DNA from: a virus
Strand: one strand, 5' to 3'
Virus record (IMG/VR): IMGVR_UViG_3300021375_002080
Location: 1-21,493 of that record
Length of the DNA: 21,493 bases
The notes under the pieces: generated by a model
The model's database searches: none
What the model was told of the DNA's origin: nothing
What the model saw: only the letters and a program-made list of their open reading frames with translations
Shown: positions 5,194 to 21,493 of the stretch, piece after piece
Layout of the letters: every line of letters begins with the position of its first letter
How positions within the stretch are numbered: the stretch's first letter is position 1
Program-made: the position numbers and the translations under genes

Positions 5194-5216
5194 AGTACTA
5201 ACACATGGAGAATTTA

Positions 5217-5903
5217 ATGATATATGATGGAACACTACTACTACGAAACGTAATCAACCCTACGACTATTGCGCAATTTAAGATGTGGGCTACTAATCCA
5301 GAGCGTTATCATCGTGGCAATGGAATCGATGGTATATATTATAGCGAGCATGATGGCGAGCGAGAGTACGATGTGTGGTGGACAACCCAACCGCCTAGAG
5401 AAATGTGGGAACCAGTTGTTTGGCAATTATATGATTCGATAACCCGAATGTTTAATAACAAAGAATGGGATATACATGCAGTTGATTGTATTTCAACTCG
5501 GCCATCATCAAATAAAATATATGCCCATATTGATACTCCATATCGTTTTGCTGAATTTGCCGAAAGTAATGAAACTCTTGGTGTACAAATTATTATTCCA
5601 CTAGACAAATTCACGTTAGATAATGGGGGGACTTCTTATCTGCCTGGTTCTAGTCTAGAGAGGATTAATTATAAAGATATAGAAGAAAATCGAGAACATT
5701 ATAATCAGAGATTGATAAATGAAGGACAGCAATTACTTGCAAATCCCGGAGACGTATTGATGTATGATGGCAGAACTTTACACAGTACCATGCCCAACAA
5801 CTCAACTGAATTTCGCAGTGCATTACTAATAAATGTACTCAAGTCTGATATTATTCCAAGAGTAAAAGAACTCGACTGTAATACTGATTTTGTTAAAAAT
5901 TAA
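5217..5903 (+). CDS. 2-oxoglutarate/Fe(II)-dependent oxygenase (PhyH-like)
   Basis: The facial triad of the non-haem iron oxygenases is visible: H104-x-D106 in the segment YAHIDTPYRF, and H189 in YDGRTLHST, followed by a basic residue (Arg200 in FRSALLINV) positioned to bind the 2-oxoglutarate carboxylate. The intervening NGGTSYLPGSS and NPGDVLMYDG turns are typical of the phytanoyl-CoA dioxygenase branch. Length (228 aa) fits a stand-alone enzyme. The substrate is unknown; phage members have been linked in various cases to modification of nucleic acids, proteins or small metabolites. I chose ATG 5217 rather than the upstream ATG 5205 because GGAG (5207-5210) sits 6 bases before 5217, while no ribosome site precedes 5205 (using 5205 gives 232 aa). 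It has its own sigma70-type promoter and lies alone between divergent gp14 and the 415-aa gene. Confidence 0.88.
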   Translation: MIYDGTLLLRNVINPTTIAQFKMWATNPERYHRGNGIDGIYYSEHDGEREYDVWWTTQPPREMWEPVVWQLYDSITRMFNNKEWDIHAVDCISTRPSSNKIYAHIDTPYRFAEFAESNETLGVQIIIPLDKFTLDNGGTSYLPGSSLERINYKDIEENREHYNQRLINEGQQLLANPGDVLMYDGRTLHSTMPNNSTEFRSALLINVLKSDIIPRVKELDCNTDFVKN

Positions 5904-15375: not shown

Positions 15376-15951
15376 ATGAAAAGTTTTAGAGAATATTTAA
15401 CAGAGTCTACAAGGGAATGTTGTTTAACCTTGAGATTTGCAGCAGAATTGAATGAAGAAGATGTCAATCGTATTGAACGTTTTCTGGGTAAGTATGACTT
15501 GATTTCTATATCGCGTACATCAACTACACCTATTACCAAAAATCCATTGTTCTTTTCTGATGGTGTAAACAACACAAAAGTTTCAAAGATAGAAATTAAA
15601 ACTGGGTATCCTGTATCTGCAGATATCTTACGAGTTCAGTTATCAGACCTATTGGAAATGAATATTTCACATATCGCTGTTCATCCTGAAGGATGGGAAC
15701 CAATCGAAGAAGTTGAAGAAGATGGTGATAAAAAAGCATTGCTAGATACTCCAGAATATGGCGATGAATCTGATAATGGCGAAAATTACGGTAGAAAATT
15801 TATTGATAATTTCTTAAACTCTCTTAGTAAAAGAGATGAAGTAACCGTCGAGAATGAACTAAGTATTGATCCTAAAAAAGATGCAGCACCAGATCAAATG
15901 AACACAGATGAAAAATCAAGTGAATCTGTTATATCAGGAGATGAAGAATGA
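15376..15951 (+). CDS. Putative capsid-targeted internal/core protein
   Basis: The N-terminus MKSFREYLTE closely resembles the ten-residue capsid-targeting sequence of T4 internal proteins (IPIII begins MKTYQEFIAE), and it ends in L-x-E, the motif cut by the T4 prohead protease gp21. I infer a protein packed into the prohead and trimmed after residue 10. The body (~15-115) looks like an alpha/beta domain (CLTLRFAAELNEEDVNRIERFL, KVSKIEIKTGYPVSADILRVQLSDLL, ISHIAVHPEGWEPIEE), followed by a very acidic tail with YGDESDNGENYGRKFIDNFLNSL. I have an uncertain memory of a similar protein in other large T4-like phages. The ATG at 15376 is preferred over TTG 15364 because GGAG (15366-15369) sits 6 bases before it. 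The stop overlaps the start of the Cys-rich gene (ATGA). Confidence 0.7.
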   Translation: MKSFREYLTESTRECCLTLRFAAELNEEDVNRIERFLGKYDLISISRTSTTPITKNPLFFSDGVNNTKVSKIEIKTGYPVSADILRVQLSDLLEMNISHIAVHPEGWEPIEEVEEDGDKKALLDTPEYGDESDNGENYGRKFIDNFLNSLSKRDEVTVENELSIDPKKDAAPDQMNTDEKSSESVISGDEE

Positions 15952-16352
15952 GCAAACATTATAACTTAACAGTAACTGATAATAACGGCAAAGCTGTTAC
16001 CACAACAAATGTAAGTACTGAGCATCCTGAAGAGCTAATGCGAATGCTAACACTTGCTGGTAAAACAGTTGAAATTACACCAGTTGGATGTGGATGCGGA
16101 TGCGATGGTCCTTGTGGATGCGATGATGATATTGAAGCATTAAATGCAGAAGCAGAATATAGAGCGACACCTGCAAATGATGAACTTGATTTAGATGATT
16201 TTTCTAAAAAGACTGCTAATTCTATTTCTAGACAAAAGAAATCTATTCAGCCAAGCAATGGTGATAATCCACTTGAGTATTCGGTAAATGAAGACGAAAT
16301 ATATGAAGCATTAATGGCTGACTTTGAATTAAACGAAGATGGTTCTATCTGA
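15948..16352 (+). CDS. Cys-rich 134-aa protein coupled to the capsid-targeted protein
   Basis: Function unknown. An N-terminal beta-rich part (YNLTVTDNNGKAVTTTNV) and helix (PEELMRMLTLAG) lead to a cluster of five cysteines in eleven residues (C48, C50, C52, C56, C58) followed by three Asp, a plausible metal-binding loop. The rest is acidic and polar, with KKTANSISRQKKSIQPSNGDNPLEY and an ending NEDEIYEALMADFEL. It has the look of a core or internal head protein partner of the preceding gene, with which it shares an ATGA overlap (15948-15951). I cannot match it to a named T4 gene. Confidence 0.7.
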   Translation: MSKHYNLTVTDNNGKAVTTTNVSTEHPEELMRMLTLAGKTVEITPVGCGCGCDGPCGCDDDIEALNAEAEYRATPANDELDLDDFSKKTANSISRQKKSIQPSNGDNPLEYSVNEDEIYEALMADFELNEDGSI

Positions 16353-16855: not shown

Positions 16856-17506
16856 ATGCCAGCATATAGAGTTAAATTACGCCGAGGTACAACGGTTGAG
16901 CATAAAACATTTGTTGGTGCTGAAGGTGAAATAACAGTAGATACTGATCTTAAAAGATTGGTAGTACACGATGGAGTGACGCCAGGAGGACATTACATTG
17001 CCGCACATAGCGATATAAAAACCGATGTGAATGAGTTCACCGATAATGATGCAAAGCTTGGTGACCATACATTTGTGAAACAAGGAACAACAATTGTTAC
17101 TACAGTATCGGCGCCTGTTGTTAACTATGCAGTACAAGTTGCCCCCGGCAGAGGATACAGAAGAACTGCAAGAACAAATGCTCCTACATTTTTCTTAAAG
17201 AATGTAACAGCCGGAGAAACTGAGTTCACTTCAAATCCTAAAGTATATATGACTCCAGGAACAGTATATATATTTGATGTAAGTGAAGAGTCAAACGCTG
17301 GACATACATTTAGATTTACTGACAATTCTGGCCAGACATCATTCACTTCAGGAGTTGTTGCTACCGGAACACCGGGAAGTACTGATGCAAAAGTAACAAT
17401 TACATATCCTACTCCTGCTAAATTTCCATTGTGGTATTATTGTCAGACACATGGATTAAGCATGGGCCAAAGAATTTTACCATATGGAAGAAATATAGCG
17501 TTATAA
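16856..17506 (+). CDS. Mtd-N-type virion protein with C-terminal cupredoxin-like domain
   Basis: Residues 1-50 match the N-terminal domain found in many phage fibres and in the Bordetella phage major tropism determinant: LRRGTTVEHKTFVGAEGEIT followed by RLVVHDGVTPGGHYIA. Residues ~105-216 look like a cupredoxin-like beta-sandwich: AGHTFRF carries His150, and YYCQTHGLSMG gives C196-x2-H199-x3-M203. His, Cys, His and Met in this order are the ligand set of type 1 copper sites. Copper binding is inferred; the domain may be used only as a scaffold or for glycan binding. The small size (216 aa) suggests a short fibre or a decoration protein. GGAG (16845-16848) precedes the ATG, and a strong terminator follows the gene. 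The N-terminus is paralogous to that of the giant fibre downstream. Confidence 0.78.
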   Translation: MPAYRVKLRRGTTVEHKTFVGAEGEITVDTDLKRLVVHDGVTPGGHYIAAHSDIKTDVNEFTDNDAKLGDHTFVKQGTTIVTTVSAPVVNYAVQVAPGRGYRRTARTNAPTFFLKNVTAGETEFTSNPKVYMTPGTVYIFDVSEESNAGHTFRFTDNSGQTSFTSGVVATGTPGSTDAKVTITYPTPAKFPLWYYCQTHGLSMGQRILPYGRNIAL

Positions 17507-17545: not shown

Positions 17546-17550
17546 ATTGA

Positions 17551-17580
17551 ACTGCGAGTATATATACTCGCAGTTTTTTT
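17551..17580 (+). terminator. Strong Rho-independent terminator
   Basis: A perfect 24-base palindrome (17551-17574, outer bases ACTGCGAG/CTCGCAGT) is followed by a run of seven Ts to 17580. It ends the 115-aa/Mtd-N transcript and isolates the giant fibre gene. Confidence 0.92.
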
Positions 17581-17676: not shown

Positions 17677-20600
17677 ATGGCATATACAGTTCAGTTTAGA
17701 CGTGGTACTACTGCAGAACATTCAACTTTTACTGGCGAAAAAGGGGAAGTTACATTTAATACTACAACCAATAGACTCGTTGTACACGATGGAACAACCG
17801 TCTCGGGAATTGCAATTGCAAGATTATCGGATATTCCTACAGACTTGTCACAGTTAACTGATACTACTAGTTTGGTAACAGAAGCGTGGCAAGCAAAACT
17901 AGCAAAAACAAGTAAAGACTATAAAACTCTGTATATGCCAACAGTGCGTAACATGACAATGAGTGATGACGGTACCAAGGTATTTACTGTGAACCAAAGT
18001 TTTATCTATGGATATGACCTTTCTATTCCATTTGATTTGTCAACCGCAGTATCACAAGGTAGTGGACATAATTATGTAGCGATGGTTGGTTACAGCAATA
18101 GTCATATGATTGAAATCTCTGGCAATGGCGAACACTTATATGTTGCACATAGTGGAAATGGTATAATATATCAACTTGATTTAGCAACTCCATATGATAT
18201 CACAACTGCTACAACTGCAAATAAAAATATTAATATTGGATCATACGAAAATGACACCCTTTCTATGGAAATGAATACATCAGGTACAAAAATGTGGACT
18301 ACAGGCGGAGCATCGGATGAAGTTCATCAATATACCTTATCTACACCATACGATATCACAAGTGCAGTATATGATGATGTTCAATTTGATCTCAATACTG
18401 TAGCAGGAATTACAACTGCACAAAGTGTCATATTGAGTACAGACGGCAGCAAAATGTATGTATTTGATTCAACTTTTGATGAATTGTTCGAATTTGATAT
18501 GTCAACCCCATATGATATATCAACTGCGTCATATAATAATGTTTCTACCTGGATTAAAGGTGCATCACACGCAACATTGTCACCTGATGGTTCAAAACTA
18601 TATGCGTCTGAAGGTAGTGTTGTAGTACAGTATAGTCTGATCTCAACTACAGATGATATAGTCACACCAACAGCATCATCTTCGCCATGGGCATTTAATA
18701 TGACCAGTATATATACCGATGCAAAAACAATTTCTACTAAGGGAAATTTAGCATTTTCAAATAATGGTACAAAAATGTATTCCGTTGATACTGCATCAAA
18801 TGTAAGAGAATATGATTTATCAATCGCATATGATATTGGTTCTTCTGTATATAATCAGTTATGGAATTTTACTGCCCAACTTGATTATCAGGCTACAGCA
18901 GTTAGCCAGTGCCATGTATCACCAGATGGAACGAAATTATATTTGCTTCAGACGACTAGCAGTTACAAATATCTTGCTGAATGGACACTTAATACTCCGT
19001 GGGACATAACAAGCGTTGATAACTCTACTAAAACCATATTAGAATTAGCACATTTAGACAGCAATTTCGTGGGATATGATATAACCGAAGATGGCAAGAA
19101 AATGATCATGATCGGAAGAACTAATGATAGAGTGTATGAATTTGTGATGACAAATCCTTATGATCTTTCAACTGCATATTGGACAGGTGCGAGAACTTAT
19201 GTTGGATTACAATCAACATCTCCAACCTCTACTTTGAAATATTCCAATGATGGTACCAAGTTATATATGGGCGCAAGTAATACGTTGTATGAATATACGC
19301 TAAGTACTCCGTTTGCAGTTGCGACCGCTAATATTTCTTCTAATGTAACCGAATATGAACATGATACTAATTTCACTGCGTCATTTTCACCAGATGGAAA
19401 ATATATATATTTTAACGATGGTTCAACAACATTTCAATATAGAGCAGACGGTTCAGAATATGTTCCATTCGTAGCAGTCTCATCTGGCGATACTTGGACG
19501 TTTGATAAAACTAGTATTGTCAATGACAAGACAACACTAAATTATAACTTAGGGCAAGGTATGACCATGTCATCAGATGGTACAAAGTTGTATGGTATAT
19601 CTGGTAGATATGTCAGACAATATAATCTATCAACCCCATATGATATTGGCACTGCTAGTTATTCAACCCAAAGTGATGTATATCCTCGTATTGGTAATGT
19701 GAATCCATCCTCATTAGAAATCTCATCAGATGGAACTAAGATGTATGTTGGACAAACCAGTAATGACACAATTTATGAATTTACATTGAGTAATCCATTC
19801 GCAGTAAGTAGTAGGAGTACTAATGCTTCTTACTATTTTGAAATTGGCAGTTTAGAAGGCACGATACAGGATATGACACTAAGTCATGACGGCAAGAAAA
19901 TGTTTGTTATTGGTAGTAGTGGTGATAAAATCATTGAATACATATTATCGACTCCTTATCGGATTTCGACTGCATATTGGACTGGTGTTACTTTTGATGT
20001 TTCATCGCAGACAACCAATCCCAAGTCAATTCAGTTTAATTCTGATGGAATGAAAGTTTATGTATTCGGCAGTTCAAAATTACATGAATATTCTATGACT
20101 AACTCATATAGTTTACCAGATATATCATACGTGTCATCAATTGATGTTGATGTTGCTTCTAACATTATGTTATCGCATACAGGTTCACATATGTATATTG
20201 CGTATGGAGACTTTGTAAGACAGTATCTATCAGATGGCACAGCACATGTTCCAGTAGTAGCAGTCTCATCAGGTGATGCATGGACGTTTGATAAAACTAG
20301 TATTGTCAACGACAATATAACACTAAATTATAACTTAGGGCAAGGTATGACCATGTCACCAGATGGCACAAAATTGTATGGTATAAATGGTAGATATGTC
20401 AGGCAATATAATCTATCCACGCCATATGATATTGCTACTGCTAGTTATTCAACCCAAAGTGATGTATATCCTCGTATTGGTAATGTGAATCCATCCTCAT
20501 TAGAAATCTCATCAGATGGAACTAAGATGTATGTTGGACAAACCAGTAATGACATAATTTATGAATTTACATTGAGTAATCCATTCGCAGTAAGTAGTAG

Positions 20601-21493
20601 GAGTACTAATGCTTCTTACTATTTTGAAATTGGCAATTCAGAAGACACGATACAGGATATGACACTAAGTCATGACGGCAAGAAAATGTTTGTAGTTGGT
20701 AGTAGTGGCGATCATGTTGTTGAATACGTATTATCAACTCCTTATCGGATTTCGACTGCATATTGGACTGGTGTTACTTTTGATGTCTCTGGACAAACAA
20801 GCGGACCACTAACAGTTCAGTTTAATTCTGATGGAATGAAATTTTATGTATTCGGCAGTGCAAAATTACATGAATATTCTATGACAACCGCATATAATTT
20901 GTCCACCGCTTCGTTTGTATCATCAATTGATGTTGATGCTGCTTCTAACATTATGTTATCGCATACAGGTTCACATATGTATATTGCTTATGGAAACTTT
21001 GTAAGACAATATCTATCAGATGGTACAGCACATGTTCCAGTAGTAGCAGTCTCATCTGGCGATACTTGGACGTTTGATAAAACTAGTATTGTCAACGACA
21101 ATATAACACTAAATTATAACTTAGGGCAAGGTATGACCATGTCATCAGATGGCACAAAATTGTATGGTATTAACGGCAGATATGTCAGACAATATGGTCT
21201 ATCCACGCCATATGATATTGCTACTGCTAGTTATGTGACCCAAAGTGATGTATATAGTCGTATTGGTAATGTGAATCCATCTTCATTAGAAATCTCATCA
21301 GATGGAACTAAGATGTATGTTGGACAAACCAGTAATGACACAATTTATGAATTTACATTGACTACCCCATTCGCAGTAAGTAGTAGGAGTACTAATGCTT
21401 CTTACTATTTTGAAATTGGCAATTCAGAAGACACGATACAGGATATGACACTAAGTCATGACGGCAAGAAAATGTTTGTAGTTGGTAGTAGTG
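17677..21493 (+). CDS. Giant tail-fibre/adhesin with WD/propeller-like tandem repeats (3' partial)
   Basis: The frame is open from ATG 17677 to the window edge, about 1272 codons without a stop, so the gene continues. It starts with an Mtd-N-type domain (VQFRRGTTAEHSTFTGEKGEVT, RLVVHDGTTVSGIAIA), then a short linker, then repeated ~50-residue blades of the form S-x-DG-x-K-(M/L)-Y-V ... (I/V)-x-(E/Q)-Y-x-L-S-T-P-(Y/F)-D-(I/L), a pattern of WD/YVTN-type beta-propellers. The blades group in units of five. Units 1 and 2 (to 19476) are diverged; from 19477 they become near-identical 262-residue units. The N-terminal domain is the probable virion anchor, and the propellers the receptor- or glycan-binding part. 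GGAG (17664-17667) supports the start. A late promoter and an upstream terminator make it an independent transcript. Confidence 0.85.
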   Translation, partial: MAYTVQFRRGTTAEHSTFTGEKGEVTFNTTTNRLVVHDGTTVSGIAIARLSDIPTDLSQLTDTTSLVTEAWQAKLAKTSKDYKTLYMPTVRNMTMSDDGTKVFTVNQSFIYGYDLSIPFDLSTAVSQGSGHNYVAMVGYSNSHMIEISGNGEHLYVAHSGNGIIYQLDLATPYDITTATTANKNINIGSYENDTLSMEMNTSGTKMWTTGGASDEVHQYTLSTPYDITSAVYDDVQFDLNTVAGITTAQSVILSTDGSKMYVFDSTFDELFEFDMSTPYDISTASYNNVSTWIKGASHATLSPDGSKLYASEGSVVVQYSLISTTDDIVTPTASSSPWAFNMTSIYTDAKTISTKGNLAFSNNGTKMYSVDTASNVREYDLSIAYDIGSSVYNQLWNFTAQLDYQATAVSQCHVSPDGTKLYLLQTTSSYKYLAEWTLNTPWDITSVDNSTKTILELAHLDSNFVGYDITEDGKKMIMIGRTNDRVYEFVMTNPYDLSTAYWTGARTYVGLQSTSPTSTLKYSNDGTKLYMGASNTLYEYTLSTPFAVATANISSNVTEYEHDTNFTASFSPDGKYIYFNDGSTTFQYRADGSEYVPFVAVSSGDTWTFDKTSIVNDKTTLNYNLGQGMTMSSDGTKLYGISGRYVRQYNLSTPYDIGTASYSTQSDVYPRIGNVNPSSLEISSDGTKMYVGQTSNDTIYEFTLSNPFAVSSRSTNASYYFEIGSLEGTIQDMTLSHDGKKMFVIGSSGDKIIEYILSTPYRISTAYWTGVTFDVSSQTTNPKSIQFNSDGMKVYVFGSSKLHEYSMTNSYSLPDISYVSSIDVDVASNIMLSHTGSHMYIAYGDFVRQYLSDGTAHVPVVAVSSGDAWTFDKTSIVNDNITLNYNLGQGMTMSPDGTKLYGINGRYVRQYNLSTPYDIATASYSTQSDVYPRIGNVNPSSLEISSDGTKMYVGQTSNDIIYEFTLSNPFAVSSRSTNASYYFEIGNSEDTIQDMTLSHDGKKMFVVGSSGDHVVEYVLSTPYRISTAYWTGVTFDVSGQTSGPLTVQFNSDGMKFYVFGSAKLHEYSMTTAYNLSTASFVSSIDVDAASNIMLSHTGSHMYIAYGNFVRQYLSDGTAHVPVVAVSSGDTWTFDKTSIVNDNITLNYNLGQGMTMSSDGTKLYGINGRYVRQYGLSTPYDIATASYVTQSDVYSRIGNVNPSSLEISSDGTKMYVGQTSNDTIYEFTLTTPFAVSSRSTNASYYFEIGNSEDTIQDMTLSHDGKKMFVVGSS
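19477..20262 (+). repeat. 786-bp tandem repeat, unit A
   Basis: In-frame 262-codon unit beginning GTCTCATCTGGCGATAC. It encodes five propeller-like blades and is followed directly by a second near-identical copy. Confidence 0.9.
20263..21048 (+). repeat. 786-bp tandem repeat, unit B
   Basis: Same length and frame as unit A, starting GTCTCATCAGGTGATGC. Long stretches are identical at the nucleotide level, with scattered substitutions and no visible frameshift. Confidence 0.9.
21049..21493 (+). repeat. 786-bp tandem repeat, unit C (cut by window end)
   Basis: The third copy starts exactly 786 bases after unit B and runs to the window edge (445 bases seen). Its blade order matches the first half of the other units. 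Confidence 0.88.

Follow-up and report, generated by a model that had tools for sequence, protein, structure and literature searches.

A predicted cupredoxin-like domain with a putative type 1 copper site in an Mtd_N tail protein of a probably marine phage

The locus and its gene products

The window, by which we mean the whole stretch of DNA analysed here, is a 21,493-base IMG/VR virus record (IMGVR_UViG_3300021375_002080) with a T4-like tail gene block that includes a sheath stabiliser, a head-tail adaptor, a long sheath protein, a tail tube and a head closure protein. Because the sheath protein is 39-40% identical to the sheath of PA5oct-type jumbo myoviruses, the phage appears to be a large myovirus with no close cultured relative in the phage collection compared; the phage is uncultured and probably marine.

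The gene of interest encodes a 216-amino-acid (aa) protein that joins an Mtd_N anchoring domain to a C-terminal domain with His, Cys, His and Met at the ligand positions of type 1 copper proteins (Table 1). The original prediction placed these residues at H150, C196, H199 and M203, and this numbering is exact in the 216-aa translation of ORF 16856-17506. It was also right about the fusion to an Mtd-N anchoring domain, which scores 55.6 bits against the Pfam cut-off of 26.3 and resembles that of the Bordetella phage Mtd 1yu0 (E 1.3e-10), while a Pfam search of the C-terminal domain found no family match. Full-length orthologues that keep all four ligand residues are present in five other IMG/VR contigs (L001-L005) at 81-98% aa identity, and dN/dS is approximately 0.16 at dS 0.8, at the larger distances among these orthologues, which together argue that the ORF is a real gene.

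Table 1. Coordinates in the window of the Mtd_N/cupredoxin-like protein gene, its predicted features and its neighbours.
Feature	Coordinates	Strand	Evidence
Upstream 115-aa protein, conserved neighbour in L001 and L004	16481..16828	+	
Whole gene, 216-aa Mtd_N + cupredoxin-like domain protein	16856..17506	+	Translation; purifying selection in orthologues L001-L005
Mtd_N anchoring domain, residues 6-42	16871..16981	+	Pfam PF18454, E 4.9e-15
C-terminal cupredoxin-like domain (predicted), residues 85-216	17108..17503	+	AlphaFold model; VIA-align to 6tfo_C
His150, N-terminal copper-ligand position, before strand 152-155	17303..17305	+	In register with plastocyanin His
Cys196, thiolate ligand position, end of strand 193-196	17441..17443	+	Sole Cys of the 216-aa protein
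His199, second His ligand position	17450..17452	+	
Met203, axial ligand position (replaced by Gln in 4 of the unselected homologues)	17462..17464	+	
Likely intrinsic terminator closing the transcription unit, a strong 12-bp hairpin with a T run	17549..17576	+	
Following gene, which runs off the window: another Mtd_N fibre, containing beta-propeller-like repeats	17677..21492	+	Pfam Mtd_N, E 1.5e-16; SGL/PD40

L001 and L004 share the gene order 115-aa protein, Mtd_N/cupredoxin-like protein, propeller fibre. The 115-aa protein gave no match in the PHROG comparison. The Mtd_N anchors of the 216-aa protein and of the propeller fibre are 52% identical over residues 3-69. The propeller fibre gene itself contains three near-identical 300-nt copies (90-91%) at a spacing of exactly 786 nt, which we read as a sign of recent duplication in the fibre.

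Several other genes in the window were noted. A 134-aa protein (15948-16352) contains a cysteine cluster, GCGCGCDGPCGCDDD, that looks metal-binding; it has no family match, and varied versions of it are found in L001 and L004. In a fibre fragment at 367-1542, a glycine-rich stretch that weakly resembles the T-even Gp38 adhesin, below cut-off, comes after a He_PIG Ig domain, and a PhyH-type 2-oxoglutarate dioxygenase gene lies amid the tail genes at 5205-5903.

Fold prediction and comparison with cupredoxins

The AlphaFold prediction for the whole 216-aa protein was confident for the C-terminal domain only, and residues 85-216, modelled from 78 sequences without templates, gave a pLDDT of 87.7 and a pTM of 0.85. 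When the domain model was compared with known structures by VIA-align, where Z scores of approximately 7-9 can reflect a common arrangement, the highest scores went to the Hyphomicrobium nitrite reductase, whose N-terminal blue-copper domain (6tfo/2dv6) reached Z 8.5-8.8, the best of these being 6tfo_C at Z 8.8 with an rmsd of 2.9 over 105 of the 132 residues. Rusticyanin scored Z 7.5 at 18% identity; laccases were also among the best structural matches, nearly all of which were cupredoxins. Foldseek matches against the PDB were weak (E approximately 0.01-0.05), the best being an unrelated barrel, SO1698, at 0.014, with 2dv6 at 0.016. Because these E-values are weak and the SO1698 barrel scores alike, the reading of the C-terminal domain as a cupredoxin-like beta-barrel, as originally predicted, is supported at moderate strength. 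In the model H150 lies before its strand, C196 ends the strand at 193-196, H199 is in a turn and M203 is in the last strand, a predicted placement on strands and loop that fits the cupredoxin plan.

At the sequence level, a profile comparison against six plastocyanin-type cupredoxins put all four ligands in register with a score of 26.2, compared to a maximum of 17.2 in 200 column shuffles and 16.0 for the reversed profile. Masking the template ligand columns dropped the score to 12.0 and the similarity to plastocyanin vanished, so that the plastocyanin sequence signal is largely the site itself. A phmmer search with the 216-aa protein returned Mtd_N relatives only, and profile searches of the PDB reached pseudoazurin and Cu nitrite reductase at E 0.1-0.3 only, mixed with antibody chains that enter through the YYC motif. 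The ligands had also been described as having the order and spacing style of plastocyanin or amicyanin. The order stands; the loop reads C-x2-H-x3-M, and its second interval, from His to Met, is intermediate between the x2 of amicyanin and the x4 of plastocyanin, with the loops of the wider family using both x2 and x3 (C-x2-H-x2/3-M).

A mostly marine virus domain family and its ligand states

A tblastn search of phage genomes located the C-terminal domain in proteins annotated as fibre or structural from phages of Prochlorococcus, Synechococcus, Pelagibacter and Methylophilales, and at least 600 IMG/VR stretches match it. Cultured phages carrying it include cyanophage S-TIM5, pelagiphage Mosig and Methylophilales phage Melnitz. 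The domain is also part of PHROG models for connector, baseplate-wedge and fibre proteins, for example those of gp9 proteins with a T4_gp9_10_N domain; tail proteins of PHROG_677, 30742 and 27200 hold it as well, and these are annotated just as connector, fibre or unknown, with no function given to the domain. A structure comparison against predicted viral proteins gave 50 matches at E <=0.001, including proteins named as fibres and two beta-sandwich proteins of Marseillevirus. The domain scores above the cut-off of no model in Pfam or NCBIfam: PF00127 (Copper-bind) had no match to it in the Pfam search, and its sub-threshold NCBIfam matches include amicyanin (best E 0.017) and halocyanin (E 0.061). 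On these comparisons the domain is a large unnamed family, found in mostly marine virus proteins, that is carried as a module by marine phage tail proteins and is not confined to one phage.

Cellular copies were sought as well. A few lie in what look like secreted or surface proteins of marine bacteria (L312-L314, L316, L319, L321), all with the full set of ligands, and one bacterial copy sits on a 1.06-Mb Bacteroidetes contig; most of the contigs with putative cellular copies look viral or unsettled. In one locus (L008, 1-6168) the domain seems to be split, the half with the first His and the half with the Cys, His and Met being separated within one frame by approximately 680 residues, which would look like a barrel interrupted by a large insert.

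In alignments of diverse homologues (14 in one, 23 in another) the four ligand residues are among the few invariant columns, which is more than chance would give, and blanking the ligand columns of the search model leaves the picture of ligand conservation the same. For counting, we used 287 complete distinct domains found with the blanked model. Loci L026-L145, which had been fetched by a DNA pattern forcing the Cys, His and Met, were left out of these unselected counts. Among the remaining fetch patterns, one set partly includes the first His and a minority in two other sets include C or C/H, while two further locus sets and the tblastn matches are free of any such constraint; all of the ligand-less members are from such ligand-free patterns.

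All four ligands (H, C, H, M/Q) are present in 261 of the 287 domains. Four of these 261 have an axial Gln in place of Met, which is the known stellacyanin substitution, and one has the azurin-like spacing C-x4-H. The Cys, second His and axial residue are jointly lost in 24 domains, and a mixed state is seen in two. The fold core is conserved in the ligand-less members (F140 1.00, Y138 0.96, N147 1.00, Y194 0.92) where the Cys and second His are at zero; the P-TIM40-type domain is a natural example of such a member. A tree of the family, which is itself weak, gives 10 parsimony changes for ligand loss, of which approximately three independent losses are well supported, too few for significance in an independent-pairs sign test. 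The axial Gln loci are L406, L421, L463 and L223 (C-x2-H-x2/3-Q), and a similar Gln-type loop in which the Cys and/or His is lost occurs in L382, L404, L409 and L419.

C196, H199 and the axial residue are thus kept or lost together in 285 of the 287 domains, with a looser linkage to H150. Because this happens while the fold core stays, the proposal that the retained ligands indicate a metal site is well supported by the comparison of homologues; such a site would be expected to show just this near all-or-none behaviour of C, H and M/Q where the fold can do without them. Since approximately 9% of the relatives live without it, the site is dispensable for the fold. The original prediction had named free loss of these residues from homologues keeping the fold as evidence against it, and had proposed looking for co-variation of all four. 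The outcome is mixed: ligand-less members do exist, and their loss is concerted rather than free; co-variation holds for the Cys, second His and axial residue and fails in part for the first His, which is retained in 13 of the 24 members lacking the other three.

The same counts bear on whether the domain is purely structural, its four residues serving loop packing or surviving as relics of a copper-binding ancestor with no ion in the virion. The fold core kept by site-less members would agree with this, as would virion assembly in a cytoplasm that is poor in copper, but such a domain would be expected to lose its Cys, His and axial Met one by one by drift, as opposed to the two mixed cases found, and the ligand Cys is the one cysteine that the domain tolerates (the rule of a sole Cys holds in 259 of 260 ligand-complete domains). 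We therefore regard a metal-free domain as unlikely. The sole-Cys rule also rules out an intradomain disulfide as the role of the cysteine. The remark in the original prediction that phages often employ cupredoxin-like folds for decoration with no metal bound was unsupported in the literature searched, where cupredoxin combined with phage, cyanophage or virion returned nothing relevant (most subscription papers and preprints lie outside the coverage).

We consider it similarly improbable that the metal in the 2His-Cys-Met cluster, there for stability of the virion, is zinc, iron or a mixture instead of copper. Cupredoxin sites in general accept other metals, but a Met, or rarely a Gln, as the fourth residue suits copper better than zinc or iron. 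A precedent for another metal is the T4 gp37 fibre, which binds iron by HxH motifs (PMC11705849).

Proposed role and comparison with known systems

Our preferred explanation, which taken as a whole we hold somewhat above even, is that the 216-aa protein is a fibre or baseplate-associated virion protein anchored through Mtd_N, and that it presents a cupredoxin-like tail module with an intact type-1-copper-type site where copper has mainly a structural or binding-competence role. The location in the virion is suggested by the Mtd_N domain, the surrounding tail genes and the homologues named as gp9 connector and fibre. The site formed by H150, C196, H199 and M203 would bind a copper ion; free copper is almost absent from the cytoplasm of bacteria, so that the site would be filled outside of the cell, after lysis. 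The bound copper may then mainly rigidify and protect the exposed fibre module rather than run a redox reaction, since type 1 copper adds stability to cupredoxins, which would benefit a fibre module in contact with sea water. With the ligand residues kept or lost together across hundreds of mostly marine virus proteins, copper is probably present on many virus particles.

We favour a role in structure or binding competence over one in redox chemistry, as neither a partner nor a redox neighbour was seen and the domain is spread across many tail proteins. A redox-active virion, with bound copper exchanging electrons with the cell surface or oxygen during attachment, would be in keeping with a preserved site of a type that is classically used for electron transfer, but there is no partner and no neighbouring redox gene within the window, fibre modules are isolated and the proposal is pure inference, making it very improbable. 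Hardly any credence can be given to an immunoglobulin-like domain with a chance YYC-x2-H motif: older records do label the domain as such (a PF07686 note for P-HM2 and, in BFVD, 'immunoglobulin domain-containing' for the MED4-213 protein) and antibody chains do appear in profile searches, but Pfam has no Ig match in the P-HM2 and MED4-213 proteins (truncated sequences), cupredoxins rank first with no Ig among the 50 best by VIA-align, and the domain has a single Cys against the two of Ig V domains, so that membership of the Ig V type, which calls for two conserved Cys and a Pfam Ig match, was rejected.

If the cupredoxin-like site does hold copper, then an unnamed domain that is very common in marine virions would be a metalloprotein module, one that could be followed by its absorption band and metal content, and naturally occurring relatives of one fold, some possessing the site and others lacking it, offer a clean test system. 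A bolder extension is that a large share of marine tailed-phage particles bear type-1-copper tail domains, using the copper actively for copper-dependent attachment or cell-surface redox, so that phages would make up a pool of organic copper ligands in sea water that has so far gone uncounted; this we think doubtful enough to be given little weight.

The nearest published idea is that of iron bound by HxH motifs of phage fibres (T4 gp37; the Ferrojan horse hypothesis), which has been proposed to matter in the sea (PMC11705849). Like T4 gp37, the cupredoxin-like domain would hold metal ions by residues of a phage fibre, although in gp37 paired His surround iron within the fibre, whereas the putative site described here is a globular, one-chain Cys/2His/Met site. 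Were the copper reading true, the iron story of phage fibres would extend to copper, which would matter for the trace-metal chemistry of the sea.

The domain resembles the type 1 copper cupredoxins (plastocyanin, amicyanin, rusticyanin and the Hyphomicrobium blue-copper domain) in its predicted beta-barrel, its ligand placement and its Met/Gln variants. It differs in being fused as a module into larger marine proteins, virion or secreted, rather than a small soluble electron carrier, in a sequence similarity that rests on the ligand columns, and in that its copper is inferred. With the Bordetella phage Mtd and other Mtd_N proteins, the 216-aa protein shares the N-terminal Mtd_N anchor. In Bordetella Mtd a retroelement diversifies a C-type lectin domain, and in place of this lectin the 216-aa protein has the predicted cupredoxin-like domain.
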